Source: Syntrophales bacterium | GTDB lineage: Bacteria > Desulfobacterota > Syntrophia > Syntrophales > UBA8958 | Direction of reading: 5' to 3' | Length of the DNA: 64,000 bases | Assembly: GCA_026416455.1 (NCBI GenBank) | Contig: JAOAFE010000002.1 | Coordinates: 150,212-214,211 of the forward strand | Part shown: in pieces, positions 8,660 through 54,285 of the stretch | How the letters are laid out: every line of letters begins with the position of its first letter | Position numbering within the stretch: the first letter of the stretch is position 1 | Program-made: the position numbers and the translations under genes | The notes under the pieces: model-generated | Told to the model about the DNA's origin: nothing | The model's database searches: none | Seen by the model: only the letters and a program-made list of their open reading frames with translations

Positions 8660-9637
8660 ATGGTTAGTCGTATCGATCTTTTATACGCCTTCGTCGCCAA
8701 CCGAAAACGTTTTTTCACGGGAGGATGGGGAGATATAGGGGTCCTGCAGTCATTGGTGGGGGATTATGCTCCTCCCACGGGAAACGGAACGGAGATAGAG
8801 ATAAATTGGATGGAGGATGAACACAAAGGATTTTTTTCCATAAAAAGAGGCTTCTTCGATTCACCGGCACGAGACGTAGGTCTACCTGAGCAAAGCAGAC
8901 AAGCCTATGTGGAATGGATCATGCCGGCAGATAGCACCTCCCATACACCCATTACTATTCATTTTGCCGCCACGGGAGACGAGGGTTTCTCAAGACGGCG
9001 TATGGCGTTCGGCTTGCCTCTTGCCCGCCGCGGAGTTGGTTCGGTCATATTGGAAAATCCTTATTACGGGCGAAGACGTCCAAGGGCCCAAGAGGGGAAG
9101 TTTCTCCCTTACGTGAGCGATCTGTGGAAAATGGGACGGGCGTCGACCGAAGAGGGCCTGGCCATTTCCCGCTGGTTAAGAAGACAGGGGTACAAGAGAC
9201 TCATCGCCTGCGGCGTCAGTATGGGAGGTCACATTGCCGCCAAAGTAGCTAACTTCAGCTCGGAACCAATGGGTTGCGTTGCCTTCCTTGCACCCCACAG
9301 TGCCGAGGCAGTTTATCTGCAGGGGATTTTAAGTAAATATGTAGCCTGGGAGGTTTTGGAGCGCGAAGCCAGAGGGGATTTTGCTGTCCGGGATTTTTTT
9401 CGAGCGGTCCTTTCGCAAACGGATATTCGTACCACCCCTCCTCGATATTCCATGAAGGCGGCGCTGATCATTGGGGCGCTGAAAGATGCTTATATTCCCC
9501 GGGAATCGGTTGAGACGCTGAAGAAACATTGGCCGGATGCAAGGCTCAAGTGGGTAAGAGGAGGACATGTAACTGCCTTCCTGCTACACCGAGAGGCATT
9601 AATCCAAGGAGTATGGGAAGTGTTGAGGGAACTTTAA
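8660..9637 (+). CDS. Alpha/beta hydrolase, DUF2048/ABHD18-like
   Basis: 'VGSVILENPYYGRRRPRAQ' and nucleophile elbow 'GVSMGGHIAAKVAN'. Confidence 0.75.
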   Translation: MVSRIDLLYAFVANRKRFFTGGWGDIGVLQSLVGDYAPPTGNGTEIEINWMEDEHKGFFSIKRGFFDSPARDVGLPEQSRQAYVEWIMPADSTSHTPITIHFAATGDEGFSRRRMAFGLPLARRGVGSVILENPYYGRRRPRAQEGKFLPYVSDLWKMGRASTEEGLAISRWLRRQGYKRLIACGVSMGGHIAAKVANFSSEPMGCVAFLAPHSAEAVYLQGILSKYVAWEVLEREARGDFAVRDFFRAVLSQTDIRTTPPRYSMKAALIIGALKDAYIPRESVETLKKHWPDARLKWVRGGHVTAFLLHREALIQGVWEVLREL

Positions 9638-9640
9638 GAG

Positions 9641-10741
9641 ATGAAGATATTTACCCTTCGCTCTTCGTACGATTATGAACGGCTGAGGACAGACGTATAT
9701 ACCCTTGTATCAAAGGTCATTCCCGATAGTATCTTGACCGGGAAAAGGGTGTTGGTAAAGCCAAACCTGCTCCTTCCCGCCACACCTGAGCAGGCCGTCT
9801 GTACCCATCCCCTCGTTGTAAGGGCGACGGTGGAATACGTGCTTGAAGCGGGTGGGCGTCCTATAGTCGCCGATAGCCCGGCTTTGGGGACCTTCGCCCG
9901 CGTAATGAAGGTGTCGGGACTGGAGGAGGCCCTTTGCGACCTACCTGTCTTATGTCTTCCGTTCCGGAACTCAATAGCCGTTGATTGCGGCCCTCCTTTC
10001 GGTGACGTTGAGTTGGCCCAAGAGGCGGTCGAGTCGGAAGTCATAATCAACCTACCTAAGTTAAAAACTCATTCTCAAATGCTCCTTACCTTAGGGGTGA
10101 AGAACCTGTTCGGATGTTGTGTGGGGCACCGAAAAGTAGAGTGGCATCTTCGAGCGGGAGTTAATCGCCAGCTATTTGCCGATCTTTTGTTGTCCATAGC
10201 TAAGAGGCTTTCTCCCGCCGTAACCCTGCTAGATGGTATTCTGTCCTTGGAAGGGGAGGGTCCCGGAAAGAGGGGGCATCCTCGCCCGTTGGGAACGCTG
10301 ATTGCGTCTGATCACCTACTGGGAGTGGACATCGCCGTAAGTCGTATGCTGGGATTGAGAATCGAAGAAGTGCCCGTTCTGGCAGCGGCTGATCGACAGG
10401 GGTTACTTCCCGATCCGAAGGAAATACCCGCCTTCGATATGTCAATAAAAGATTTTCAGCTCCCGACCTTAGAACCCCTACTGGCCACAGTGGGCCCCTT
10501 TGATGGGGTGTTGAGGAAATATTTCGTTGCCCGCCCGGTGCCGGATAAAGTGCGGTGTCTCCTGTGTGGGGAATGTGCAAAGATGTGTCCTGTCCAGGCG
10601 ATAAAGATGGGAAAGGGGCTTGACATCGCTTACGACCGGTGCATTCGCTGTTACTGCTGTATCGAGGTATGTCCTTATGGGGCAATGGCAAAAGAAGAAG
10701 GCCTTTTTGCGAGGTTAATTAGGCATGTTTTTAAAAGGTGA
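9641..10741 (+). CDS. DUF362 protein with C-terminal 2x[4Fe-4S] ferredoxin domain
   Basis: 'GKRVLVKPNLLLPATPEQAVCTHPLVVRATVEYV', 'CLLCGECAKMCPVQAI...CIRCYCCIEVCPYGA'. Confidence 0.88.
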   Translation: MKIFTLRSSYDYERLRTDVYTLVSKVIPDSILTGKRVLVKPNLLLPATPEQAVCTHPLVVRATVEYVLEAGGRPIVADSPALGTFARVMKVSGLEEALCDLPVLCLPFRNSIAVDCGPPFGDVELAQEAVESEVIINLPKLKTHSQMLLTLGVKNLFGCCVGHRKVEWHLRAGVNRQLFADLLLSIAKRLSPAVTLLDGILSLEGEGPGKRGHPRPLGTLIASDHLLGVDIAVSRMLGLRIEEVPVLAAADRQGLLPDPKEIPAFDMSIKDFQLPTLEPLLATVGPFDGVLRKYFVARPVPDKVRCLLCGECAKMCPVQAIKMGKGLDIAYDRCIRCYCCIEVCPYGAMAKEEGLFARLIRHVFKR

Positions 10742-11502
10742 AGGTCATGAATGATTTCTCGGTGCTTTCTAATTTGATTAAAACCCTCCGATCACCGGAG
10801 GGATGTCCCTGGGATCGGACACAGAAAAAGGCTGATCTGGGAAAGTATCTCATAAACGAGGCCTATGAGGTATTAGATGCCATCGAGTCAGGGGACAAGA
10901 TCGCCTTCCGGGAGGAATTGGGGGATTTGCTGTTTCAGATCGTTTTTCTGGCCGTCTTGGCCGAAGAGGAGGGGGAGTTTACGTTGGAGGAAGTGGTATC
11001 TCATGTGAAAGAAAAAATGGTACGTCGCCATCCGCACGTGTTTGGGGAAAGGGCGGTGGATGGGGTAGAGGAGGTAAAGAAGAATTGGGAACTAATGAAG
11101 ATGGAGGAAGGAAAATCGCTGCTTAACGGGACACCGCGGTCCCTGCCCGCCCTGAGACGGGCTCAGGAAATCACCAAAAGGGCAGCTCGGGTGGGCTTTG
11201 ATTGGCCACAGATAGAAGGGTTGTGGAAAAAGATGGACGAGGAACTCGATGAACTGAAACAGGCTTTGGCAGCGCAAGACAAAGATAAAGTCGAGTTGGA
11301 GGTGGGCGATCTTCTTTTCACCTGCGTTAACCTGGCCCGGTTTCTCCAAGTAGAAGCGGAAGAGGCTTTACGAAATACAACCGATCGTTTTGTTGAGCGC
11401 TTTTCTTACATTGAAGATAGGTTGAAGGCCAAAGGGAAAAAGCTGGAAGAGGCGACGTTAGAAGAAATGGACGCCCTGTGGGAGGAGGCAAAAGGCAAGT
11501 GA
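10738..11502 (+). CDS. mazG: Nucleoside triphosphate pyrophosphohydrolase MazG
   Basis: 'LRSPEGCPWDRTQKKADLGKYLINEAYEVLDAIESGD...EELGDLLFQIVF' and a second MazG repeat. Confidence 0.95.
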   Translation: MKVMNDFSVLSNLIKTLRSPEGCPWDRTQKKADLGKYLINEAYEVLDAIESGDKIAFREELGDLLFQIVFLAVLAEEEGEFTLEEVVSHVKEKMVRRHPHVFGERAVDGVEEVKKNWELMKMEEGKSLLNGTPRSLPALRRAQEITKRAARVGFDWPQIEGLWKKMDEELDELKQALAAQDKDKVELEVGDLLFTCVNLARFLQVEAEEALRNTTDRFVERFSYIEDRLKAKGKKLEEATLEEMDALWEEAKGK

Positions 11503-12803
11503 TTTTTAGGGACGGGGAACCAGATATCCGTGTGGGTCTTGTTGAAGGAGAAAAGGAGATCGAAGGCTTCCTGGAGGGTCCATACGAGTTAGACGGTATT
11601 CTCGTAACCAATGTCCCCTTTAGAGTGGTGGTAGAGGGAGGAAGACTTGTCTTGACCGTAAAAGGAGAAGTTAAGGGTAAGAGCAAGCAATGGACCTGTA
11701 CGCCTAAAAGCGATGTCTCGACTCTTTCCCTATCGGGTGTCACCATCGGACGCAAGTTTCACTGGGAAAGAACAGAAAAACAGCTTTTCCGCGGGACCGT
11801 AAGTTTTTTCTGGGACGAAGGGGCGCTAATTGCCGTCAACCGGTTGCCCTTGGAACAGTATTTGGAGATCGTCGTTTCTTCTGAAATGAGTGACCGGGCG
11901 CCGGAGGAATTCTTGAAGGCCCACGCCGTGATCGCACGATCATGGGCGGGACGCATTCTCTCGGCAGAAGCGGATGGATCCTCGATGGAGATGGTTCCAA
12001 GGGAAGGAGAATTCATCCGGTGGTATGATTGGACGGGACACGGCAACTTCGATGTCTGTGGGGATGATCATTGTCAACGTTATCAAGGAATCGGACGTAT
12101 GAAAACGGGGAAGGCAGCTCAGGCGGTCAGAGATACGAGAGGCCTCTTTCTCATTTTTGCGGGAAAGATCTGCGATGCGCGATATCATAAGGCCTGTGGA
12201 GGGAGAACGGAACTTTTTTCAAGCGCCTGGGATGCCCGAGAGGTGCCGTATATCAAGTCTGTCTCCTGTGGAGAGAGGGATTTTTCGGCCATTGGTAATG
12301 AAAGGGAGGCAGAAGATTGGATCCGGTCACATCCACCCGCCTTTTGCGGCGTCAAGGAAAAAGGCATATTGGAAAGCATCCTCAATGAATATGACCGGGA
12401 GACGGAGGATTTTTTCCGCTGGGAAGTGACGTACAGCAGAGAAGAGCTCACGGCTATGGTAAAGGAAAAGTCGGGGATAGATTTCGGTCGCATCGAAGCC
12501 CTGCTCCCCTTAGCTCGGGGACCATCGGGTAGGATTTATCGCTTGGAGATTAGAGGAAGTAGACGCAATGTTATTGTGGGGAAGGAGTTGGAAATCAGAC
12601 GCTGGCTTTCTCCTACGCATCTTTTGAGCAGTGCCTTTATTGTGAAGGTAGCAGGTGATACCTTTCGGATAAAAGGGGCGGGTTGGGGACATGGGGTAGG
12701 TCTCTGTCAGATTGGAGCGGCAGTTATGGCTTCACTGGATTGGGATTTTACGCGAATTCTCTCTCACTATTTCCCCTCTACTTCTCTTTACCGCCTTTAC
12801 TAA
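11499..12803 (+). CDS. SpoIID/LytB-domain protein without an obvious signal peptide
   Basis: 'EQYLEIVVSSEMSDRAPEEFLKAHAVIARSWA', 'CDARYHKACGGRTE', 'GAGWGHGVGLCQIGA'; GTG at 11499 overlaps the mazG stop (GTGA). Confidence 0.88.
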   Translation: MIFRDGEPDIRVGLVEGEKEIEGFLEGPYELDGILVTNVPFRVVVEGGRLVLTVKGEVKGKSKQWTCTPKSDVSTLSLSGVTIGRKFHWERTEKQLFRGTVSFFWDEGALIAVNRLPLEQYLEIVVSSEMSDRAPEEFLKAHAVIARSWAGRILSAEADGSSMEMVPREGEFIRWYDWTGHGNFDVCGDDHCQRYQGIGRMKTGKAAQAVRDTRGLFLIFAGKICDARYHKACGGRTELFSSAWDAREVPYIKSVSCGERDFSAIGNEREAEDWIRSHPPAFCGVKEKGILESILNEYDRETEDFFRWEVTYSREELTAMVKEKSGIDFGRIEALLPLARGPSGRIYRLEIRGSRRNVIVGKELEIRRWLSPTHLLSSAFIVKVAGDTFRIKGAGWGHGVGLCQIGAAVMASLDWDFTRILSHYFPSTSLYRLY

Positions 12804-13225
12804 AGATGGGGAGGAGGTTCGTTCCATTGAAGCCAGTAGAGGCCTAGTATTTTCATCGCTTCAGTAAACTCGATGAAATTAACTGGCTTACAGACATAGC
12901 CGTTGGCTCCGCGACGATAAGCTTCTTTTCGATCCCTATCTTCCCGCGATGAAGAAAGGACAACGACGACAAGCATCTGTGTTCGCTCTTGAGACCTTAT
13001 TTTTTCAAGGAGCTCAAAACCGTCAATCCGAGGTAGTTTCAGGTCAAGGAGAACAAGAACGGGGAGTCTATTTTCTGGGTTAAATAGGTAATCCATGGCT
13101 TCGACTCCATCTTGGGCTACGACAAAATCATAAGACCATCCGTTTTTTCGAAAGGCACGAATCGTCAAATCTACATCATCAGGATTGTCTTCCACGAGTA
13201 ATATAGGATTTCCTTTTCTCGTCAC
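12800..13225 (-). CDS. Rcp1-type single-domain response regulator
   Basis: 'ILLVEDNPDDVDLTIRAFRKNGW...VLLDLKLPRIDGFELL...NGYVCKPVNFIEFTEAM'. Confidence 0.93.
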   Translation of the reverse strand: MTRKGNPILLVEDNPDDVDLTIRAFRKNGWSYDFVVAQDGVEAMDYLFNPENRLPVLVLLDLKLPRIDGFELLEKIRSQERTQMLVVVVLSSSREDRDRKEAYRRGANGYVCKPVNFIEFTEAMKILGLYWLQWNEPPPHL

Positions 13226-15396
13226 TTGCCCGTCTCCTCGCCGTGAGGTAAATAAAAATAGAAGGTGGCTCCTGCATGGGGCATACCTTCTCCTCTAATC
13301 CAACCGCCGTGGCGTTTAATGATCCGGTCGACAATGGTCAGCCCAATACCTGTTCCTGGATATTCAGATAGGCCGTGTAGTCTTTGGAAGGGGTGAAAAA
13401 GTTTCTCCGCATACCTCATATCGAATCCCGTTCCGTTGTCCCTGATGAAGTAGACCGATCCATTTTCGCCATTTTCAACTCCGAACTCGATTTTAGCCTC
13501 TTCTTTTCGGATTGACGTAAACTTCCAGGCATTGTCGAGTAGATTTCTCAAGGCAATAAAGATGAGTTTTCTGTCTGCCCAGGCAAACATATTATCATAA
13601 CAGGTGAAGTTTATGTGACGAGATGGATCCTCTGACCTCAATTCGTCCATAATATCTCGGGCCATGGCCCCTAGATCCACCTGCTCTTTTTTTATCTCCT
13701 GGCGGCTTAAGCGCGATAGTTTAAGGAGTTCGTCGATGAGATAGGACATTCTGTCCGAGGCTTGCAGGATACGGGAAAGCATCCCCTTTGCTTCGTCACT
13801 CAATTCATGGCCGAAATCTTCCTCTAGGGCCCGGGCAAATCCGGAAATAGCTCTCAGCGGTGCTCTTAAGTCATGAGAAACGGAATAGCTAAAAGCTTCC
13901 AGTTCGTTCGTTCTTTCCGCTACCCGTCTTTCTAATTCTTCATTTAATCGCCTGATGGCTTCTTCTGCTTCCCATTGGGCACTTATGTCCCTCGTGACAC
14001 CTACTATTTCCTTGGGCTTTCCTTCTTTGTCTAGGATGATCGTGGCTGAGGTTTCCACCGGTAACATCTTTCCCCCTTTTCCTACGAGTACATGTCTTGT
14101 CGTGCGCACTCGGTCCTCTGCTTTCCCTCCGACAAAAGATTCTATCCGTTCGTGGAGGGCCCGCCGCAGGGAGGGATAATCCTGAGGCATAAGCAGGTCC
14201 TTCAACGTTAAATTTTCTGCCTCTGCTGGAGTATACCCCGATAAATTGTAGGCGGAGGGGCTGAGATAGAAAAAACGTTCCGATTCGATGTCCATCACCC
14301 AGACAACGTCTGCTGTGTTTTCGGCAATGAGTCGGTAGTGCTCTTCTTTTTCACGCAAATTCGTTTCCAGGGCGTGTTCTCTTTCGTAGTGGGTCCTCAT
14401 CCGTCTTGACCACACGAGCGATAGGCCGAAAGCACAGGCGAAGATTATGGCCAACACAGTTACGCCGATAAAAATGGCCAGTTGATTGATGGGACGGTAA
14501 ATTTCTTCAATATCGATCTTGGCTAGGATCAGCCAGTTGGTCTCTGGCACCTCTTTGATGCAGGCGAGAACCGGTTTCCCTCGGTAATCCTTGCCCTGGA
14601 CAAAACCCCGTGCTCCCAGGGCTGCCATGGCGGCCGGCAATTCCTTCTCTGTCAGTTTTCTTCTTAATTTTAAGGCCGCCCCTTGGACGAATCGAAGTTC
14701 GTTGAGAAAAACGACCTCTTCTCCTTCCCTCCTTACCATGAGGGTTTCTGCCGAATCACTAGGCATGGGCCAGGATTGAATGGTGGGAAACAAAAAGGTA
14801 GCCGGATCGATACGCATCATGATGGCACCCACTATCTCTTCTCTGCCTTCTTCTCTAAGGGTCAAAGGAGCGGCAATATCGATGTGGATTCTTCTTTCGT
14901 CCGGAAATTCGTGCAGGTCGGACATGGCGACCTCTCTCTTTTCAAGGGACGTAAGAACTAAGTGGCGGGCATATGGACCGATACTATCTCCCCGATAGCC
15001 CAAGTACCACCGAGATTTCAGCCCGAGGTCTAAGAGTTGAATGGAGATGTACTGTTCACAGCGGTAAAGGCTCGAGATCGTGTCTAAAACTATGTTCTGG
15101 GCCCTTTTATCTCCGGAAAAGAATTTTTTCACCTCCAGGGCAAAGGCAGAGTTTTGGGATAGGATTTCTGCGTCTTTCAGCCGTTCCCGACGCCATGAGA
15201 CGATTTGTTTCACTTTTTCGTCCGCCACGGCGGCTAGCATCTTATGCTGATGTAATTTGATACTCTCTTTCTGTTTTTGGTAGACATACGTACCCACTGA
15301 GATTATACCGGCTGCCAGGGCAACAAAGGTTATGGCCACCGGTAAAACGGATAGTTTATCTTTCTTGTTCTTCATTGTCCCCCGTGAAAAAATCAT
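13222..15396 (-). CDS. Membrane sensor histidine kinase (extracytoplasmic Cache-like + PAS + HisKA + HATPase)
   Basis: N-terminal TM, second TM near aa 305, PAS, 'SYSVSHDLRAPLRAISGFARAL', 'GTGIGLTIVDRIIKRHGG'. Confidence 0.92.
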   Translation of the reverse strand: MIFSRGTMKNKKDKLSVLPVAITFVALAAGIISVGTYVYQKQKESIKLHQHKMLAAVADEKVKQIVSWRRERLKDAEILSQNSAFALEVKKFFSGDKRAQNIVLDTISSLYRCEQYISIQLLDLGLKSRWYLGYRGDSIGPYARHLVLTSLEKREVAMSDLHEFPDERRIHIDIAAPLTLREEGREEIVGAIMMRIDPATFLFPTIQSWPMPSDSAETLMVRREGEEVVFLNELRFVQGAALKLRRKLTEKELPAAMAALGARGFVQGKDYRGKPVLACIKEVPETNWLILAKIDIEEIYRPINQLAIFIGVTVLAIIFACAFGLSLVWSRRMRTHYEREHALETNLREKEEHYRLIAENTADVVWVMDIESERFFYLSPSAYNLSGYTPAEAENLTLKDLLMPQDYPSLRRALHERIESFVGGKAEDRVRTTRHVLVGKGGKMLPVETSATIILDKEGKPKEIVGVTRDISAQWEAEEAIRRLNEELERRVAERTNELEAFSYSVSHDLRAPLRAISGFARALEEDFGHELSDEAKGMLSRILQASDRMSYLIDELLKLSRLSRQEIKKEQVDLGAMARDIMDELRSEDPSRHINFTCYDNMFAWADRKLIFIALRNLLDNAWKFTSIRKEEAKIEFGVENGENGSVYFIRDNGTGFDMRYAEKLFHPFQRLHGLSEYPGTGIGLTIVDRIIKRHGGWIRGEGMPHAGATFYFYLPHGEETGK

Positions 15397-15465
15397 TTAT
15401 CACACCTTTTATTGCGGTCAAGGGTATTGTGAGAGCGGATTTTTTGTGCCATACAGGCACCTTGT

Positions 15466-16176
15466 ATGGTGACAGATATAACGTCGATAACCACGGCTTT
15501 TATTTTGGGGGCAGGGAGAGGAGAGAGGCTGCGACCCATGACGGAGGAATATCCCAAGCCCCTTTTATTGGTGAGGGGGAGACCGGTGATTACGTATGTC
15601 ATGGATCATTTGCTCTCCGTCGGGGTAAAAAAGTTTATCGTCAATACCCATCATCGGGCGGAGAGGTACGCCGAAGTGTTCCCGGAAGGAAATTGGCGGG
15701 GGGTGCCGATCGACTTTCGATACGAACCCGTGCTTTTGAATACGGGAGGAGGATTGAAGAATATCGAAGATCTGATTCAGGGAGAGGAGCACCTTTGGGT
15801 ATACAACGGTGATATCATCTCTGATTTGCCTTTATCGCGGCTGGCCGAGGTTCATCTGGAGGGACAGAATGAAGTCACTTTGGCCTTAAGAACCAAAGGG
15901 AAAAACCTCAACGTGGGTGTCGATAGGGATGGCAGACCGTGTGATTTTCGCTTTGTGTTGGGGCGTAAATGTCATAGTTATCGTCAATTTGCGGGTATTT
16001 ATTTGGTGCGGACGGAATTTCTCTCCCGCTTGCCCGCGGGGGTGCCCATAGATATCGTAACTGTTTTTATCGACCTGGTGAAAGAAAAACCGGATGCCAT
16101 AGGAGGTGTAATCATAGACGAAGGCACCTGGGATGATGTAGGGGATGTGGCCACCTATCGGCAACTCAATGAGTGA
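15466..16176 (+). CDS. NDP-sugar pyrophosphorylase-type nucleotidyltransferase (MurU-like)
   Basis: 'AFILGAGRGERLRPMTEEYPKPLLLVRGRPVITYVMDHL', 'YEPVLLNTGGGLKN', 'DVGDVATYRQLNE'. Confidence 0.88.
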   Translation: MVTDITSITTAFILGAGRGERLRPMTEEYPKPLLLVRGRPVITYVMDHLLSVGVKKFIVNTHHRAERYAEVFPEGNWRGVPIDFRYEPVLLNTGGGLKNIEDLIQGEEHLWVYNGDIISDLPLSRLAEVHLEGQNEVTLALRTKGKNLNVGVDRDGRPCDFRFVLGRKCHSYRQFAGIYLVRTEFLSRLPAGVPIDIVTVFIDLVKEKPDAIGGVIIDEGTWDDVGDVATYRQLNE

Positions 16177-16182
16177 ATTCAT

Positions 16183-17184
16183 ATGGAGAGGCTAAAAATA
16201 GCTTTGACTTGGGCCAAAGAACAACTGGGGATGGGACGTGAGGAAGAAGTCAAGATGCAAGACCTCTTTAGGGGGGGATCGGGTAGGAGATATGTGCGCC
16301 TGATATGGGATAAAGGTTCGTGTATTCTCATGCTTTATGATACGGAGCGGAAAGAAAACGAATTCTTTGTCCCCCTGGCACGGTTTCTGGCTCGCCTGGG
16401 GGTGTCGGTACCTCACATTTTAGCGTGGGAAGGAGAAAAAAATTTTGTGCTCCTCGAGGATTTGGGAGACGATACCCTGTGGTCTCTGAGAGAACAAAGG
16501 GGCGAGAAGCTTTGGGAATTATATGGCAAAACTATAGAGGTCATTACGGTCCTACATACCTATCCTTTAGATGCGTTTCGGTCGCAGGGCCTATCCTCCA
16601 TGCCGGGATTCGATAAGACCCTCTATCAGTGGGAAAGGGACTATTTTCGTGAAAATTTCGTCTATCGATTGGCCGGCTTAGATCTCTCGGAAACAGAGGA
16701 GAAGGAACTGGAGACAGAGCTATCAATGCTCGCGGAAAGGCTACTATCTTTCCCTTCTTGCCTCATTCATCGTGATCTCCAGTCGCAGAATATAATGGTT
16801 TACAAAGAAAAACCGTATTTGATCGATTTCCAAGGTTTGAGGGAGGGAAACCCTCTTTACGACATAGCCTCTTTGGCGTACGATCCTTATATGCCCCTGT
16901 CGGATGAAGAGAGGATAAGGGTGGCAAACTACTATTATGAAATCAGGCCGTTCGAGCTTAATAGGGAAGAATTCTTTCTCAAACTCTGGGAAGCTGCGGC
17001 CCAAAGATTGATGCAGGCTCTGGGAGCTTATGCCTATCTTGGTGTGGTTAAGGGATTAGACAGTTTCCTTGCTTACGTCGGTCCAGGACTTAAGAATCTC
17101 CTTTGGGTTACTGAGAGAGTGCCTTCTCTTTCCCATCTTTACCGTCTTGCCCGTCGGCTGGAAGGGACTGTATTTAAATCGTAG
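16183..17184 (+). CDS. APH-fold sugar kinase-like phosphotransferase (AmgK-like)
   Basis: 'CLIHRDLQSQNIMVYKEKPYLIDFQGLREGNPLYDIASLAYDP'; follows the nucleotidyltransferase as in amgK-murU pairs. Confidence 0.82.
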   Translation: MERLKIALTWAKEQLGMGREEEVKMQDLFRGGSGRRYVRLIWDKGSCILMLYDTERKENEFFVPLARFLARLGVSVPHILAWEGEKNFVLLEDLGDDTLWSLREQRGEKLWELYGKTIEVITVLHTYPLDAFRSQGLSSMPGFDKTLYQWERDYFRENFVYRLAGLDLSETEEKELETELSMLAERLLSFPSCLIHRDLQSQNIMVYKEKPYLIDFQGLREGNPLYDIASLAYDPYMPLSDEERIRVANYYYEIRPFELNREEFFLKLWEAAAQRLMQALGAYAYLGVVKGLDSFLAYVGPGLKNLLWVTERVPSLSHLYRLARRLEGTVFKS

Positions 17185-17208
17185 GGTAGAAAAACAGGGA
17201 GAAAACAA

Positions 17209-17874
17209 ATGGAGAAAAGCAAGATTGCTTGTATCATTACGACGATAGCCGTGATTTGCTGGATTTTGTCCTGTGCTCCTGGACGGGAGATGTATCACGT
17301 AAAGTTAAAGTATGAACCAATGAGCGTGAAACCCCTATTTGAGGCAGGAGAGAGAAAACACGTGACCGTTGCCTTCTTTCGGGATGCGAGGACCATCGAC
17401 GACCCCGTCAAGATGGGGTGGGTCAGCCATCCAAAGGGGAGACGGTGGGTGATGCCGGAGGAAAAATATCCTGATGTGGCCGTGACGGAGGCCGTAAGAG
17501 AATACCTAAAAAGCTGCGGGGTGAGTGTGGAAGCCCAACATCCCCGCTGGGATCTGACGGAGGAATCAATCGAGGCAAATTGGGGACATATTATCTTAGG
17601 CGGTGCCATCGAAGAACTAGAAGTACTCTGTGATGATACGGATCGCTTCAATCCGGTAAAGAAATATCAAGCTAGAGTGAAGCTTAAGGTCGTTCTGGCC
17701 GATGGAAAGAGAAAGAAAATAGTTTACAGAACGGAAGCCGAGGCCCGTATGTCCCTCCAAGACATTTCCTGTTCGCCGGAAAAGATGGAAAAACTGCTGA
17801 ATGCCGCCCTTTACGAGGTTTTGGAGAGGATTTTTGCCGGAAAAGAAATGGTGCAATTGCTCAAGGCCCTATGA
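17209..17874 (+). CDS. Putative lipoprotein (~222 aa) of unknown function
   Basis: '[12 protein letters not shown]' lipobox-like N-terminus. Confidence 0.7.
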
Positions 17875-19310
17875 AGGTCTTTGTCGTTTTAGTGGGCATA
17901 TCGAATAGAGAAGAGATCTCCTCTTTCCTTCCCCTCTTCGGGCACCCTCAAGTGTCCGGTGGAGTTGTCATAACTCCATTGGCTGTTGATTTCGGCGGAA
18001 CTATAGCTGGCCTCGTAACGGATAAGGTAGAAAGCAGCGACACAATTGCCCAATTGGCAGACCAGGCAAAGGGAGATTACATCCTGTGGGTGGATGCGAA
18101 AAAGAGCTTACACGTTTTCCCAGAAGCCCTGGAGCGCAGTCTTTCGGTCGCCCAAGATTGTGGGGCAAGTATCGTCTATGCAGATTATGAGGAACGTGCT
18201 CTAACGGACTACGAGCTGGGAAGCGTAAGGGATAATTTCGATTTAGGCCCTTTTCTTTTTTTGCATCGAGAACGGTTGAAAGACATTTTGGCTAGGGAGA
18301 GGCGTGGCTATCGTTTGGCTGGACTTTACGACGCCCGCCTTAAATTGTCGCGCCTGGGACCAATCGTCCACCTGCGAGAGCCTCTCGGGCAAGAAAGGTC
18401 GGCAAAGGATTATGATAAGGAAAAGTTTTCTTACCTGGAGGCGACCAATGAAGCTTATCAACGGGAACTGGAGCATGCTTTCACCGAGCATTTAAAAGCC
18501 ATCGGGGCGTATTTAGCCCCCGAGTATGAGCCCTTGCCTTACGACCATGATCTCTATCCCGTAGAGGCAAGCATTATAATTCCCGTAAAAAACCGTGCTT
18601 CCACCATAGGAGATGCGCTAAGGAGTGCCCTTAGTCAGAAGGCGAGCTTTCCCTTCAATATCATAGTTGTGGACAATCATTCGACCGATGGAACCAGTCA
18701 GATCCTCGATGAGCAAGCCCACAAAAATAGTAATCTTATAGTCCTAAGGCCGGAAAGGACGGATCTCAATATTGGCGGCTGCTGGAACTTAGCTGTCCGC
18801 TCACCACATTGTGGGAGATGGGCTGTACAGCTTGATTCGGATGACCTTTACGCTCACGAGGGGGTGCTTTCGATGATCGTTCATATGCTCTCCGGCGGGG
18901 ATTATGCCATGGTTATTGGTTCATATACCTTAGTGGATATGAAAGGCCGGATCCTGCCTCCTGGCATAATTACCCATCGGGAATGGACGGAAGAAAATGG
19001 GCGGAATAACGCTTTGCGGGTGGAGGGTTTTGGTGCTCCCCGCGCCTTCCGCACGCAGATATTAAGAAATATGCCCTTTCCCAACGTAAGTTACGGGGAA
19101 GATTATGCCGTAGCGTTGAGGATTTCTCGTTTTTACCGGATAGGTCGGATCTTCGAAAGCATTTACTTTTGTCGGCGATGGGAAGGAAATTCCGATGCCC
19201 GTCTTACTCCGGAGAGGGTAAATGAATTCAACGCCTACAAAGATCGAATTCGTACGATAGAGATCATGGCCCGCCAGCGCCTGAACGAGAGGAGACGTGA
19301 AAGGAATTAA
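17871..19310 (+). CDS. Family 2-type glycosyltransferase, two-part
   Basis: '[44 protein letters not shown]...VQLDSDDLY'; ATGA overlap with the upstream gene. Confidence 0.85.
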
Positions 19311-20211
19311 TCCAATCCTGGCAGAATTTTTCGATCGACAGAGGAGAACATGGTCTGAATTCAACGGGGCCTGCCAAGCCCTAGGTGGGGCCCAGTCAAA
19401 GAGAATAGAGTTCGAGGGCGGTTATTTTCTAGTGCAACTAAACCCCCAAAGGCGGGTCAATGTAGAAGTCACACCTGATGACACCCCATGCCTTCTTTGT
19501 GAAGAAAATCTTCCATTGGAGCAGGAGAGAATGCCTTTGGGTGAATCCCTCTATCTCTTGTGCAATCCCCGACCGATCTTCCCCTATCATTTCACTTTGG
19601 CATCTCGCCAACATGAAAAGCAGGCAATAGAAGGTCGCGAAAAACTGTTATTAGATGTGGCAAAAGAATTGGGGCCGGGCGTGGCCTTATTTTATAACGG
19701 TCCCCATTCAGGAGCCTCTATTCCCTTTCATTTCCACTTCCAGGCCGTGCCCTTTTCTAATCTCCCTATTCATGAGGATCGTCGATGGTTGAAATGGGCA
19801 GATCTTTCGGTCGTCGCCTTAGTGAATCACCAGATACGAAGCTACTTCTTCCTGCGAGGGACAGATAGAGATGCCTTAATCGAAAACGTAAGGCGCTTTA
19901 TGATGGCGTGGAAAAAGGTCTCGGCCAGTGAAGATGAACCCATGGTAAATATCATAGTAGCCTTCGAAGATGGGTTGTGGCTCGTTTATATCTTTCCCCG
20001 TCGGGGTCATCGGCCGAAAAGATTCTTCGCAAGCGAAGGAGAGAAGATTATCGTAACACCGGGAGCGGTAGAGATGGGAGGAGTGATAGTGACGGTGCGG
20101 GAAAGGGATTTTCTTGCTTTGAATGAAAGAATATTACAGGAAATCATGAGCGATGTCTGTGTTGCCCCTGAAGTGCTCGATGATATTGTGAGGCAATGTA
20201 AGTGTTTATAA
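19297..20211 (+). CDS. DUF4922-like GalT/HIT-superfamily protein (putative sugar-phosphate nucleotidyltransferase/phosphorylase)
   Basis: '[15 protein letters not shown]' (CxxC) and '[10 protein letters not shown]' (HxHxQ) as in the GalT/HIT superfamily. Confidence 0.75.
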
Positions 20212-42546: not shown

Positions 42547-44892
42547 CTACTTTTTTACTTTGCCTACGGGGAAGGATTGACCGCTCGGTGTGGCGGTTGG
42601 ATATTGGGGGCGTTTGAAGATCTTTTCCGCCAGCATTGGCACTTCGCTATCGACGTAGTTGGCAATTTCCAGGGTCTTGATAAAACCATCTTTATCTAGG
42701 TCTGCTTTCCCCTTCATCCCTTCTGTGAGGACATAGGTAAAAAGACCATGTCCTTGATAGCCTTCGATTGCCTCCTGAAGAGAGGTCGAAGCACTGAGTA
42801 TAGTCGAACCTACGGCACGGGAAAGAATCTTTATCGCCGTCTCTTCGCTCATACCGCGCGTCGCCATGGCAACTTGAAGCGCTTCCCCCAACTTGCCTGC
42901 ATTGCATGTATCTATGACAATCATTTTCTTGGTCGAGGGAATGTTGGCAATTAATTCTTTCAGCTCTACCTGGGTTAAAGCATCCTCTCTGAGCCTCGAG
43001 GTGCTGAGGGAGCCTACATTTGAGGTAATTAGAAAATATTCCCCTTCGTCGACCGTTCCATGGCTAGCCACGTAGAAAACGAATACATCATCCGGATTTA
43101 TTGATTTATATCCTTGCAATACCTTTTTTATGTTTTCCTTTGTCGTCTCTTCCCTCGTCGTGAGTATCTTTATTTTGACCGTATCAAACAGGGGATTAGC
43201 TATCTCACTAAGTGTATGAGCGAATAGCTGTGCATCGGCGGCTGCGTATTTTAGTTCGAGCTTGGGGTTTTTGTATTCGTTTATTCCGATGGCCAATACG
43301 TACATCTTTGGTTTTCGACTAGTCATGAAGGTGGACTTTACCTTGTGCAAGACCGGCTTGCTCTGCATAGTACCGTCGGCATTGAAGGCAACTACCTTGA
43401 TGATGTTTTCCCCGGAAAGTAGTTTTACCGCATATGTCTTTTGTATAACTTTATCTCCCGGTAGGTAACTTATCTTGACCCCTCTTGCACTATCAAGGAT
43501 AACTGAAGTGTCATTGAGATAAAGTCTGACATCGCCAATCCCCCCTCCTACGTCTATAAGTTTCACTTTAACGAGCACCTCGTCAGTCTGGACTTCAATC
43601 GGTGTTTCTACAATTTGTACTTCTGGGGGTTGCTTTATATCCGCTACCGATCGGTGGTGTTCCAAAACCCGCCCAGCGAGGGCTAATTTTACTAAATCCG
43701 GCCGATAGAACGCTTCTCGTAGCTGCTCTATGGTATATTCTTTACCGCTCACCTTTACCGTATAAAGCTGATCGCCCCGCTCAGAGCTATTGTAGTACCC
43801 AGAAGGCGTCAAGGCGATCCATTCTCCGTTTTGAAAAGTGATAAACGAAGCCAACTCCTTTCCGGAATCAACATCCCAGACCCTCACAGCATCGCCTGCG
43901 AGAGAAACGATTCGCTTTCCATCCGGAGAAAATTTTGCATCGATGGAATGGAGTACCTCAAAGAAAGATGGATGATCTATGACCTTCACCTCTTTTAAGG
44001 TAGAGAGTTCTCTAATAACTATCTTGCCTCCTCCTCCTGAAAGAAGATACCTTCCATCGGGGGAGACATCTACCGACCAGGCTGCCTGTTCCCCTTTAAT
44101 CTTCTTCACTTCATGCAGGGTGTTTGCATCCCATACGATAATATCTCCCGATGTGCATCCGGTGATGACATGCCTCCCATCGGGAGAAACAGTTGCTATC
44201 GATTGTGGGTTGAAAGAAAGGGTGGGGCAAGCTTTGGCTTTTTTTATTTCTTTTCCCGCGCGGACATCCCACATTTTGAAATCGGGCGATGTATAGACAT
44301 ACTTTCCATCCTTCGAGAATATCGCGTTAAAATATATTTGGTAAGGTTTGGTCGGGAAATCCTTTACTTTTCTTCCTTTTTCAACATTGAAGAGGGAGAT
44401 GATTGCGGGAAGAGACGGCCCAAACAGGCCCCGATCAGGGCCGGGAGATACGGCCAAGAGGTACTTGCCATCTGGTGAGAAAGAAAGCCCCGCACAGGCT
44501 TCGATATCAAAACTTCCAGTTTCTTCTTTTTTTTCGATATCCCATAGGGTAATACTCTTTTCACCCCCAACGGCAAAAAACTTACCGTCTGGTGAAAACG
44601 CCACTCCGCCACCACATGGGATCCCCAAAACTTTTCTCGGAGCAAAACTTCCCACCATCACCTGGACTCCTTCGTAGAGATCGTACAAACTGAAGGATCC
44701 CGTTCCGCTTATGACCAAGGCATATCTACCATCTGGCGAGATTTTGAGCCCAAATCCTAAGGGTACTTTTTCCTTAACCCCTGCCTCAATGCCGGCCTTT
44801 TCGGTCTTAATATGAGGTTGAACAGCGCAGTGACAAAGGAAAGAAGACAGCAGAAGTATCCCTAATAAAGAAACATATTTCCCGACTCTCAA
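42547..44892 (-). CDS. Exported WD40-repeat + caspase-like (peptidase C14) protein
   Basis: N-terminal hydrophobic leader; seven 'S(P/K)DG[KR]' beta-propeller motifs; caspase p20-like 'VLAIGINEYKNPKLELKYAAADAQLF...FYVASHGTVDEGEYFL...MIVIDTCNAGKLGEAL'. Confidence 0.87.
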   Translation of the reverse strand: MRVGKYVSLLGILLLSSFLCHCAVQPHIKTEKAGIEAGVKEKVPLGFGLKISPDGRYALVISGTGSFSLYDLYEGVQVMVGSFAPRKVLGIPCGGGVAFSPDGKFFAVGGEKSITLWDIEKKEETGSFDIEACAGLSFSPDGKYLLAVSPGPDRGLFGPSLPAIISLFNVEKGRKVKDFPTKPYQIYFNAIFSKDGKYVYTSPDFKMWDVRAGKEIKKAKACPTLSFNPQSIATVSPDGRHVITGCTSGDIIVWDANTLHEVKKIKGEQAAWSVDVSPDGRYLLSGGGGKIVIRELSTLKEVKVIDHPSFFEVLHSIDAKFSPDGKRIVSLAGDAVRVWDVDSGKELASFITFQNGEWIALTPSGYYNSSERGDQLYTVKVSGKEYTIEQLREAFYRPDLVKLALAGRVLEHHRSVADIKQPPEVQIVETPIEVQTDEVLVKVKLIDVGGGIGDVRLYLNDTSVILDSARGVKISYLPGDKVIQKTYAVKLLSGENIIKVVAFNADGTMQSKPVLHKVKSTFMTSRKPKMYVLAIGINEYKNPKLELKYAAADAQLFAHTLSEIANPLFDTVKIKILTTREETTKENIKKVLQGYKSINPDDVFVFYVASHGTVDEGEYFLITSNVGSLSTSRLREDALTQVELKELIANIPSTKKMIVIDTCNAGKLGEALQVAMATRGMSEETAIKILSRAVGSTILSASTSLQEAIEGYQGHGLFTYVLTEGMKGKADLDKDGFIKTLEIANYVDSEVPMLAEKIFKRPQYPTATPSGQSFPVGKVKK

Positions 44893-52416: not shown

Positions 52417-54285
52417 ATGGATCTCGAATTTAAGTCCAAGTTTAAGGATAAATTTGCTTCCGAAGAGAAAATTTTTTCCCACATCCACCGGGGCGATCGT
52501 ATCTTTATCTCTACTGCCTGTGCGGAGCCCCAGTACACAATCCAAGCCCTCATGAAGTACGTGGAAGACCACCCCAAGGCCTTTGCCGAGGCGGAGTTAA
52601 TGCATATCTGGACCCTGGGTGTGGCCCCTTACGTGGAAGATCGTTTTACCTTCAACTTCCGTCATAATTCCTTCTTCGTGGGTGATAACACGCGGGAATC
52701 GGTCAACCGCGGAGTGGCTGACTATACCCCCATTTTTCTCTCCCAAATACCGCGTCTCATCTATACGGAAAGGATTCCTATCGATGTAGCGATTATCCAA
52801 ACTTCCCTTCCCGACCGTAACGGTTATGTAAGTTTAGGCATCAGTGTGGACATCTGCCGGGCGGCAGTGGACAAAGCGAAAATTATCATCGCTCAGATAA
52901 ACCGTTACATGCCTCGCGTGCATGGTGACACCTTTCTTCATCTCGATGATATAGATTTCATCATCCACCATGATGAGCCCCTTTTAGAATACGCGCCTCA
53001 GGTACCCGACGAAGTGGCCATGAAAATTGGAAAGAACGTGTCCCGCATCGTAAATGATGGGGATACGATTCAGCTCGGTTACGGAAGCACCCCAAACGCA
53101 ATTTTAAGTCATCTCGAGGAGAAAAACGACCTGGGCATCCACACGGAGCTCTTGACGGATTCGATGGTGAGTCTAATCAGGCAGGGAGTGGTAACCAATC
53201 GGCGGAAAAACATAAACCGAGGGAAGACCATCGCCTCTTTCTGTATGGGAACCAAGAACACTTATGATTTTCTTGACGACAATCCGGCGGTTGAATTTCG
53301 GAGCATTGACTACACCAATGATCCACGCATTATCTGTCAAATAGAAAATATGACGGCCATAAATGCAGCCCTTCAGATTGACCTTACAGGTCAAGCAACG
53401 GCCGAATCTATCGGACGCATATTCTACAGCGGCATCGGTGGCTCAGCCGATTTCATGCGTGGTGCCGTCTGGGCACCGGGGGGAAAGACTATTCTCGTCC
53501 TCCAATCGACGGCGCGGGGGGGAGAGGTGTCTCGTATTGTTCCTTTTCTCGATAGTGGTGCTGGGGTGACCCTCAACCGCGGCGATATTCATTATGTCGT
53601 TACGGAGTACGGCATCGCTTACGTCCACGGAAAAAATATTAGGGAAAGAGCCATGAGTCTTATTGCCATCGCTCATCCTAAGTTTAGACCGTATCTCATC
53701 GAAGAGGCAAAGCGCCTGAATCTCATTTACCCTGATCAAGCCTTTATCCCGGGCGAAAAAGGCGAATATCCTGCTTATTTAGAAACTTTAAGGACAACGA
53801 AGACGGGCCTTACGGTAAAACTACGTCCCGTGAAACTCGATGATGAACCTCTCATCAAAGATCTCTTTTACTCCATGTCAGACAAGAGTCTCGAGCGAAG
53901 GTTTATGGAGATTAGATACGATGTGCCTCATCCCATGAGGCAAACCTTTGTGGTTATCGATTATACGAGGGAAATAGTAATTCTCGCGACGATTGAAACA
54001 AACGGCAAGGAAATAGTCGTCGGCATGGGTCAGGCCATCAAAGACCCCGAATCCCAGATGGCGGAAGTAGCTTTTGCCGTGAGGGATGAATATCACGGGC
54101 AAGGGATCGGAACGGAACTCCTTTCCTATCTGACTCAGTGGGCTAAGAAAGAAGGATTGCAAGGGTTTACGGCGGATGTGCTCTTGGAGAACAAGCCCAT
54201 GCTCCATGTGTTCGAAAAGATGGACTTCGACATGAAAAAGAGGGTGGAAGCGGGGGTTTATGAACTAACCATGAAATTTAAGTAA
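52417..54285 (+). CDS. Acetyl-CoA hydrolase/transferase with C-terminal GNAT domain
   Basis: 'DTIQLGYGSTPNAILSHL', 'GIGGSADFMRGAVWAPGGKTILVLQSTARGGEVSRIVP' CoA transferase; C-terminal 'AEVAFAVRDEYHGQGIGTELLSYLTQWAKKEGLQGFTADVLLENKPMLHVFEKMDF' GNAT. Confidence 0.93.
   Translation: MDLEFKSKFKDKFASEEKIFSHIHRGDRIFISTACAEPQYTIQALMKYVEDHPKAFAEAELMHIWTLGVAPYVEDRFTFNFRHNSFFVGDNTRESVNRGVADYTPIFLSQIPRLIYTERIPIDVAIIQTSLPDRNGYVSLGISVDICRAAVDKAKIIIAQINRYMPRVHGDTFLHLDDIDFIIHHDEPLLEYAPQVPDEVAMKIGKNVSRIVNDGDTIQLGYGSTPNAILSHLEEKNDLGIHTELLTDSMVSLIRQGVVTNRRKNINRGKTIASFCMGTKNTYDFLDDNPAVEFRSIDYTNDPRIICQIENMTAINAALQIDLTGQATAESIGRIFYSGIGGSADFMRGAVWAPGGKTILVLQSTARGGEVSRIVPFLDSGAGVTLNRGDIHYVVTEYGIAYVHGKNIRERAMSLIAIAHPKFRPYLIEEAKRLNLIYPDQAFIPGEKGEYPAYLETLRTTKTGLTVKLRPVKLDDEPLIKDLFYSMSDKSLERRFMEIRYDVPHPMRQTFVVIDYTREIVILATIETNGKEIVVGMGQAIKDPESQMAEVAFAVRDEYHGQGIGTELLSYLTQWAKKEGLQGFTADVLLENKPMLHVFEKMDFDMKKRVEAGVYELTMKFK

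Follow-up and report, generated by a model that had tools for sequence, protein, structure and literature searches.

A candidate cytoplasmic module for peptidoglycan-sugar salvage, built around SpoIID and a tandem glycosyltransferase, in a Syntrophales bacterium and its distant relatives

In the anhydromuramate recycling bypass of Pseudomonas, AmgK phosphorylates N-acetylmuramic acid (MurNAc) and MurU makes UDP-MurNAc. Known SpoIID enzymes cleave the bond between MurNAc and N-acetylglucosamine (GlcNAc) in the order MurNAc-GlcNAc, not GlcNAc-MurNAc, and their chemistry takes place at C1 of MurNAc. In Tannerella forsythia, an operon formerly termed glycosylation-related (Tanf_08345-08385) has the order xanthan lyase-gtf-gtf-lytB-ampG-ybbC-murT-murK-murQ, of which gtf-gtf-lytB-ampG-ybbC-murTKQ is transcribed as one unit (PMC5388701). 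Its AmpG and MurTKQ proteins are characterised, while both gtf genes and lytB are without assigned function (PMC5388701, PMC7670621). T. forsythia has no predicted AnmK and uses GlcNAc-anhydroMurNAc (GlcNAc-anhMurNAc) via AmpG, which imports this compound and GlcNAc-MurNAc; their cytoplasmic processing was termed open by the authors (PMC7670621). Here we describe a 64,000-nt stretch of DNA from a Syntrophales bacterium (the window), in which a gene for a SpoIID/LytB-domain protein lies close to genes for a sugar nucleotidyltransferase, an APH-fold kinase, a tandem glycosyltransferase (GT) and a DUF4922 protein. Genes were read from a list of open reading frames (ORFs) and families from Pfam and NCBIfam scans. 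We read the set as a cytoplasmic module for salvage of peptidoglycan sugars that works without NagZ and AnmK, with a probability of roughly 0.6. The salvage role of the set is well supported, and the specific chemistry proposed below for the GT, DUF4922 and SpoIID is more tentative.

DUF4922, the SpoIID subfamily and the other components were sought in 297 genomes of the window's phylum, many of them metagenome-assembled. The SpoIID subfamily was found in 40 genomes, namely in 33 of 33 with DUF4922 and 7 of 264 without it (Fisher p = 3e-37; this and the other co-occurrence p-values are inflated by shared ancestry). A tandem GT is present in 40/40 SpoIID-positive genomes and was not found (≤72 bits) in the nine SpoIID-negative genomes tested, and among 118 Bacteroidota genomes SpoIID and the GT occur in the identical 18 (p 1e-21). 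Because the GT accompanies SpoIID throughout, these two genes form the invariant core, and DUF4922, the kinase and the nucleotidyltransferase are frequent but variable partners. DUF4922 was rejected as a core member, as 7 of the 40 SpoIID genomes keep the GT without it. Neighbourhoods were compared by profile mapping in the phylum loci and 80 further named loci from the GTDB collection, giving 109 non-redundant DUF4922 loci on stretches often cut by contig ends; a GT lies nearby in 98 and is fused to DUF4922 in 11, and SpoIID and an AmpG-like gene are found in 50 and 34, respectively. Co-occurrence is above chance, and the set is conserved over Desulfobacterota, Ignavibacteria and Bacteroidota. 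An earlier note, made by a model from the sequence alone, had mentioned similar sets in Bacteroidota and proposed a survey across phyla. The comparison made here bore this out and found the set beyond close relatives, in the company of AmpG, MurK, MurQ and NamZ; the note had the component genes right, but had missed AmpG and the special standing of the GT and SpoIID.

Carriers of the set in the phylum mostly lack the standard recycling enzymes. GH3 was detected in 4 of 40 SpoIID-positive versus 196 of 257 SpoIID-negative genomes (p 5e-16), or, counted by genus, in 3/27 versus 135/171 (p 1e-11). Three of the exceptions (the fourth, in G201, was left out) are proteins of 652-806 aa without the NagZ motif KHFPGHG, which is present in 11 of 15 GH3 proteins sampled from SpoIID-negative genomes. 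A coded NagZ motif was seen in 0/40 SpoIID-positive versus 89/257 SpoIID-negative genomes, which is supporting evidence only, as the motif misses many GH3 genes. In both the window's order and family f62, one genome without the set has NagZ and set-bearing relatives are mostly without GH3, and because of this repetition the pattern amounts to more than one single split, though shared ancestry inflates these p-values as well. AnmK is absent from 37 of the 40 SpoIID-positive genomes, though it is rare across the phylum regardless. Neither GH3/NagZ nor AnmK was detected in the window genome, which therefore does not show recycling of the E. coli type.

The neighbours of the set point to peptidoglycan recycling. 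Many Desulfobacterota have the operon order SpoIID-AmpG-nucleotidyltransferase-APH(-GT), and TIGR00901 is the best family for these AmpG neighbours. The AmpG of the window genome (452 bits, above the cut-off) is encoded on contig C43, away from the set, so that an importer for AmpG-dependent recycling is found both in this genome and in the operons of relatives. Other recurrent neighbours are NamZ exo-muramidases, MurQ etherases and BadF-family kinases, the family to which MurK belongs, and some loci also encode a secreted GH3 fusion. A locus of Bacteroides ihuae (L117) has MurK (assigned by family membership), MurQ and NamZ near the set, and its arrangement GT-DUF4922-SpoIID-AmpG-NamZ ... MurK-MurQ corresponds to gtf-gtf-lytB-ampG-ybbC(NamZ)-murT-murK-murQ of T. 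forsythia, the second gtf being taken as DUF4922 on gene order alone. The route in the window's phylum is joined to AmgK/MurU-like enzymes, in contrast to MurK/MurQ in the T. forsythia operon. Of the salvage or remodelling route that had been suggested for the window, cytoplasmic salvage of peptidoglycan sugars is thus the form supported by the conservation and by AmpG, MurK, MurQ and NamZ.

Two further observations were made around these genes. By family membership, L117:14898-17765 encodes an FAD-oxidase and an Fe-S/CCG protein of the D-lactate dehydrogenase type, which fits the release of D-lactate by MurQ. In the window genome (L195:671-2724, contig C43), AmpG directly follows an ORF that by eye resembles a gamma-glutamyl hydrolase of the class-I glutamine amidotransferase kind and might cleave the gamma-D-Glu bond in stem peptides.

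The genes of the set in the window and those adjoining or interrupting it are as follows.

10738..11502, + strand: MazG pyrophosphohydrolase; start-stop overlap with SpoIID, also a neighbour in L032; housekeeping
11499..12803, + strand: SpoIID/LytB-domain enzyme, no signal peptide (Pfam SpoIID 2e-21)
12800-13225, - strand: response regulator; insertion, outside the module
13222-15396, - strand: PAS histidine kinase; insertion, outside the module
15466..16176, + strand: MurU-like NDP-sugar pyrophosphorylase (Pfam NTP_transferase 2e-20; GAGxGxRLRP...PKPLL signature)
16183..17184, + strand: AmgK-like APH-fold kinase (Pfam APH 7e-24; HRDLQSQN, IDFQG)
17209..17874, + strand: predicted lipoprotein within the operon; no family match
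17871..19310, + strand: tandem GT-A glycosyltransferase of family GT2 (Pfam GT2 4e-22)
19297..20211, + strand: DUF4922 protein, GalT/Apa2-like (Pfam DUF4922 7e-35; HFHFQ at 19729-19743)

The five genes from the nucleotidyltransferase to DUF4922 are tightly packed on one strand, and SpoIID is parted from them by the histidine kinase/response regulator pair on the opposite strand (12800-15396). SpoIID is the last gene of one operon here, and the kinase genes are the start of another. In the sister locus L032, from the window's own family, MazG-SpoIID-nucleotidyltransferase-APH-GT-DUF4922 runs unbroken on one strand without the regulatory pair, which identifies the pair as an insertion; in other relatives the slot is occupied by AmpG. 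A role for the pair as regulator of the module was rejected, as the insertion is lineage-specific. All of the genes named in the earlier note were recovered at its coordinates from the ORF list and the Pfam/NCBIfam scans, although the intervening pair had been overlooked. The lipoprotein, which the note had counted among the set, had no match in the family scan and has no homologue among the neighbourhood loci; it is probably not a conserved part of the set and was rejected as such.

The window SpoIID belongs to the SpoIID/LytB domain family (TIGR02669, 167.4 bits against a cut-off of 83.3 bits) and falls short of the sporulation protein equivalog (TIGR02870, 121 bits against 234.75 bits). The predicted catalytic Glu, E129 (codon 11883-11885), and zinc-type residues H181, C187, H191 and C192 (12039-12074) are invariant in an alignment of 32 subfamily members. 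They match E101, H134, C140, H145 and C146 of Clostridioides difficile SpoIID (PMC6221140), so that the residues expected of a SpoIID lytic transglycosylase are all present. The subfamily therefore shares the domain, the catalytic Glu and the zinc-ligand set with the SpoIID lytic transglycosylases of Bacillus subtilis, C. difficile and Waddlia. Unlike these, it has no signal peptide, and a hydrophobic N-terminal segment that could serve as signal or membrane anchor was found in 0/32 members. The spacing is also one residue shorter, C-x3-HC rather than C-x4-HC, and a subfamily profile scores window-type SpoIID at ≥211 bits (gene fragments aside) and other SpoIID at ≤93 bits. Known SpoIID is specific for denuded strands (PMC6221140), and the Waddlia homologue is able to work as a muramidase (PMC6635528).

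AmgK is the best NCBIfam family for 18/18 kinase members (best E-value 2.6e-28), every one far below the cut-off; the window kinase reaches 84.8 and 65.7 bits against the AmgK equivalog cut-offs of 550 and 500 bits. With an APH fold, HxDxxxxN and DF motifs, AmgK as the closest family and a uridylyltransferase-like gene adjacent, it is judged AmgK-like from its sequence, and C1 phosphorylation of MurNAc is its putative activity. The nucleotidyltransferase conserves the pyrophosphorylase signature G-x-G-x-R/PKPLL and is partnered with the kinase; in L180, from the window's family, the two are fused in a single ORF of 562 aa. Its score for MurU (105 bits, cut-off 250 bits) is tied with that for mannose-1-phosphate guanylyltransferase (110 bits). 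The scores lend no support to taking these two proteins for AmgK and MurU themselves. An anomeric kinase beside a sugar-1-phosphate uridylyltransferase and import by AmpG are shared with the Pseudomonas bypass, from which the window-type set differs in its scores far under the equivalog cut-offs, in the addition of SpoIID, the tandem GT and DUF4922, and in that most carriers lack NagZ and AnmK.

The AlphaFold2 model of the GT (mean pLDDT 91) contains two GT-A domains, in agreement with the two-part glycosyltransferase of the earlier note. Its best fold match is the two-domain chondroitin polymerase K4CP of E. coli K4, followed by TarS/TarP-type enzymes, with which it shares the tandem GT-A layout and the DSDD and ED motifs. 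In domain 2, DSDD and GEDY are invariant and CRRW is near-invariant (alignment of 43 rows), and it is through DSDD and GED of this domain that the protein has the DXD and catalytic acidic residue of a GT2 enzyme. Domain 1 has a weaker motif set (YADYEE/YDxRLK) and is less conserved (0.52 versus 0.75), and this, together with the adjoining peptidoglycan recycling genes, distinguishes the GT from K4CP and TarS/TarP. Inverting GT2 enzymes form beta-linked GlcNAc from UDP-GlcNAc.

The DUF4922 protein carries the CxLC and HxHxQ motifs, as noted earlier, with H145, H147 and Q149 invariant. Among known folds, its predicted structure (pLDDT 92) is closest to Apa2, the Ap4A phosphorylase of yeast (E 1.5e-10); GalT and ADP-glucose phosphorylase come next. 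Fold and HxHxQ site place it in the GalT/Apa2 branch of the HIT superfamily, and the model suggests a putative nucleotidyl transferase or phosphorylase. Apa2, GalT and the ADP-glucose and GDP-hexose phosphorylases have this fold and active site in common with DUF4922, which is ≤17% identical to them and is linked or fused to a GT. A search of open-licence papers for the term DUF4922 returned only papers on plant GDP-L-galactose phosphorylase, and such a role was rejected, as nothing in the set links to ascorbate. In the sister family (L033-L038, L084, L086 and relatives), the GT-DUF4922 fusion has LeuRS-LptE on one side and a gene resembling an M15 carboxypeptidase on the other.

The analysis shows which genes are present, how they occur together and what surrounds them, as well as the folds, the conserved active sites and the lack of a signal peptide; from these we infer possible substrates, directions and an order of steps. 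Muropeptide sugars would be imported through AmpG, and SpoIID and the tandem GT would split GlcNAc-(anhydro)MurNAc in the cytoplasm. The GT would run in reverse, transferring GlcNAc from the disaccharide to UDP to give UDP-GlcNAc, and DUF4922 could phosphorolyse this to GlcNAc-1-phosphate, returning UDP and pulling the reverse reaction. With water serving as the nucleophile, SpoIID would open the bond at C1 of (anhydro)MurNAc and release free MurNAc, much as in the muramidase mode of the Waddlia homologue (PMC6635528). The AmgK-like kinase would then make MurNAc-1-phosphate and the MurU-like enzyme UDP-MurNAc; in the Bacteroidota variant, MurK and MurQ would convert MurNAc to GlcNAc-6-phosphate. 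This combination of reverse GT, phosphorolysis by DUF4922 and SpoIID at MurNAc C1 is tentative, and we hold it for clearly less probable than the salvage role. Recycling free of both glycosidase and AnmK, in which the backward GT yields UDP-GlcNAc (or GlcNAc-1-phosphate via DUF4922) and cytoplasmic SpoIID frees MurNAc at C1, is a shade more doubtful still; it would let energy-limited anaerobes conserve the energy held in the glycosidic and anhydro bonds.

Several points weigh against salvage without NagZ and AnmK, beginning with the shared ancestry behind the co-occurrence values and the 7 of 40 SpoIID genomes that lack DUF4922. For AnmK, Desulfobacterota gave no significant anti-correlation (3/40 versus 25/257) and Bacteroidota a weak one (8/18 set-bearing versus 73/100 other genomes, p 0.03), and SpoIID as a strict, mutually exclusive replacement of AnmK was rejected. 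NagZ exclusion in Bacteroidota is likewise only partial (NagZ-type motif in 12/18 set-bearing versus 94/100 other genomes, p 0.003), possibly through the motif in secreted GH3 fusions. Since 12/18 keep this motif and 8/18 keep AnmK, replacement is not strict in that phylum. GT2 enzymes usually run forward, known SpoIID enzymes act on the other bond and on denuded strands, and the reading is drawn wholly from genes, folds and motifs.

In one alternative, SpoIID alone, as lytic transglycosylase or muramidase, would cleave imported MurNAc-GlcNAc within the same salvage role, and the GT and DUF4922 would re-use GlcNAc in the forward direction, for example on a carrier. This agrees with the known specificity of SpoIID and with the existence of a muramidase variant (PMC6635528), and the secreted NamZ in the locus hints at MurNAc-GlcNAc fragments; however, the T. 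forsythia AmpG substrates GlcNAc-MurNAc and GlcNAc-anhMurNAc do not contain that bond (PMC7670621) and the obligate GT partner is left unexplained, making this possible but improbable, though the strongest of the alternatives. Obligate partnership is accommodated by a cytoplasmic peptide-free MurNAc-GlcNAc glycan, polymerised by the dual-domain GT from UDP-GlcNAc and kinase/nucleotidyltransferase-derived UDP-MurNAc and degraded by SpoIID, but we know of no such cytoplasmic polymer. The match to K4CP, the partial GT2 motifs kept in domain 1 and the cutting of denuded strands by SpoIID (PMC6221140) agree with this glycan, whereas domain 1 is far less conserved, the company of AmpG, NamZ, MurK and MurQ and the loss of NagZ are not accounted for, and we consider it unlikely. 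A further alternative, in which SpoIID is a passenger and the other genes serve nucleotide-sugar metabolism of an unrelated kind (LPS heptose, capsule or protein glycosylation), would suit the mannose-1-phosphate guanylyltransferase score and the former label of the T. forsythia operon (PMC5388701). It is very unlikely given that SpoIID and the GT are never apart in genomes searched for both, that AmpG, MurK, MurQ and NamZ are neighbours and that all 18 kinases have AmgK as their best family. Marginally less probable again is non-classical export of SpoIID for remodelling of periplasmic peptidoglycan, with precursors provided by the other genes; known SpoIID proteins do work outside the cytoplasm (PMC6221140, PMC6635528), but no subfamily member has a hydrophobic N-terminus and the co-operonic enzymes look cytoplasmic.

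Cytoplasmic SpoIID and the tandem GT, with DUF4922 as helper, are thus named as candidates for processing AmpG-imported fragments in bacteria without AnmK, T. forsythia included, and bacterial DUF4922 gains a functional context. If salvage by this module is correct, SpoIID enzymes also take part in cytoplasmic metabolism, and one cell-wall recycling pathway extends across Desulfobacterota, Ignavibacteria and Bacteroidota.

Elsewhere in the window, 42547-44892 (-) encodes a protein in which WD40 repeats are combined with a caspase (Peptidase_C14) domain, and 52417-54285 (+) a GNAT acetyltransferase domain fused to an acetyl-CoA hydrolase/transferase. An alpha/beta hydrolase of the ABHD18 family, which takes its name from a eukaryotic protein, is encoded at 8660-9637 (+; 236 bits).

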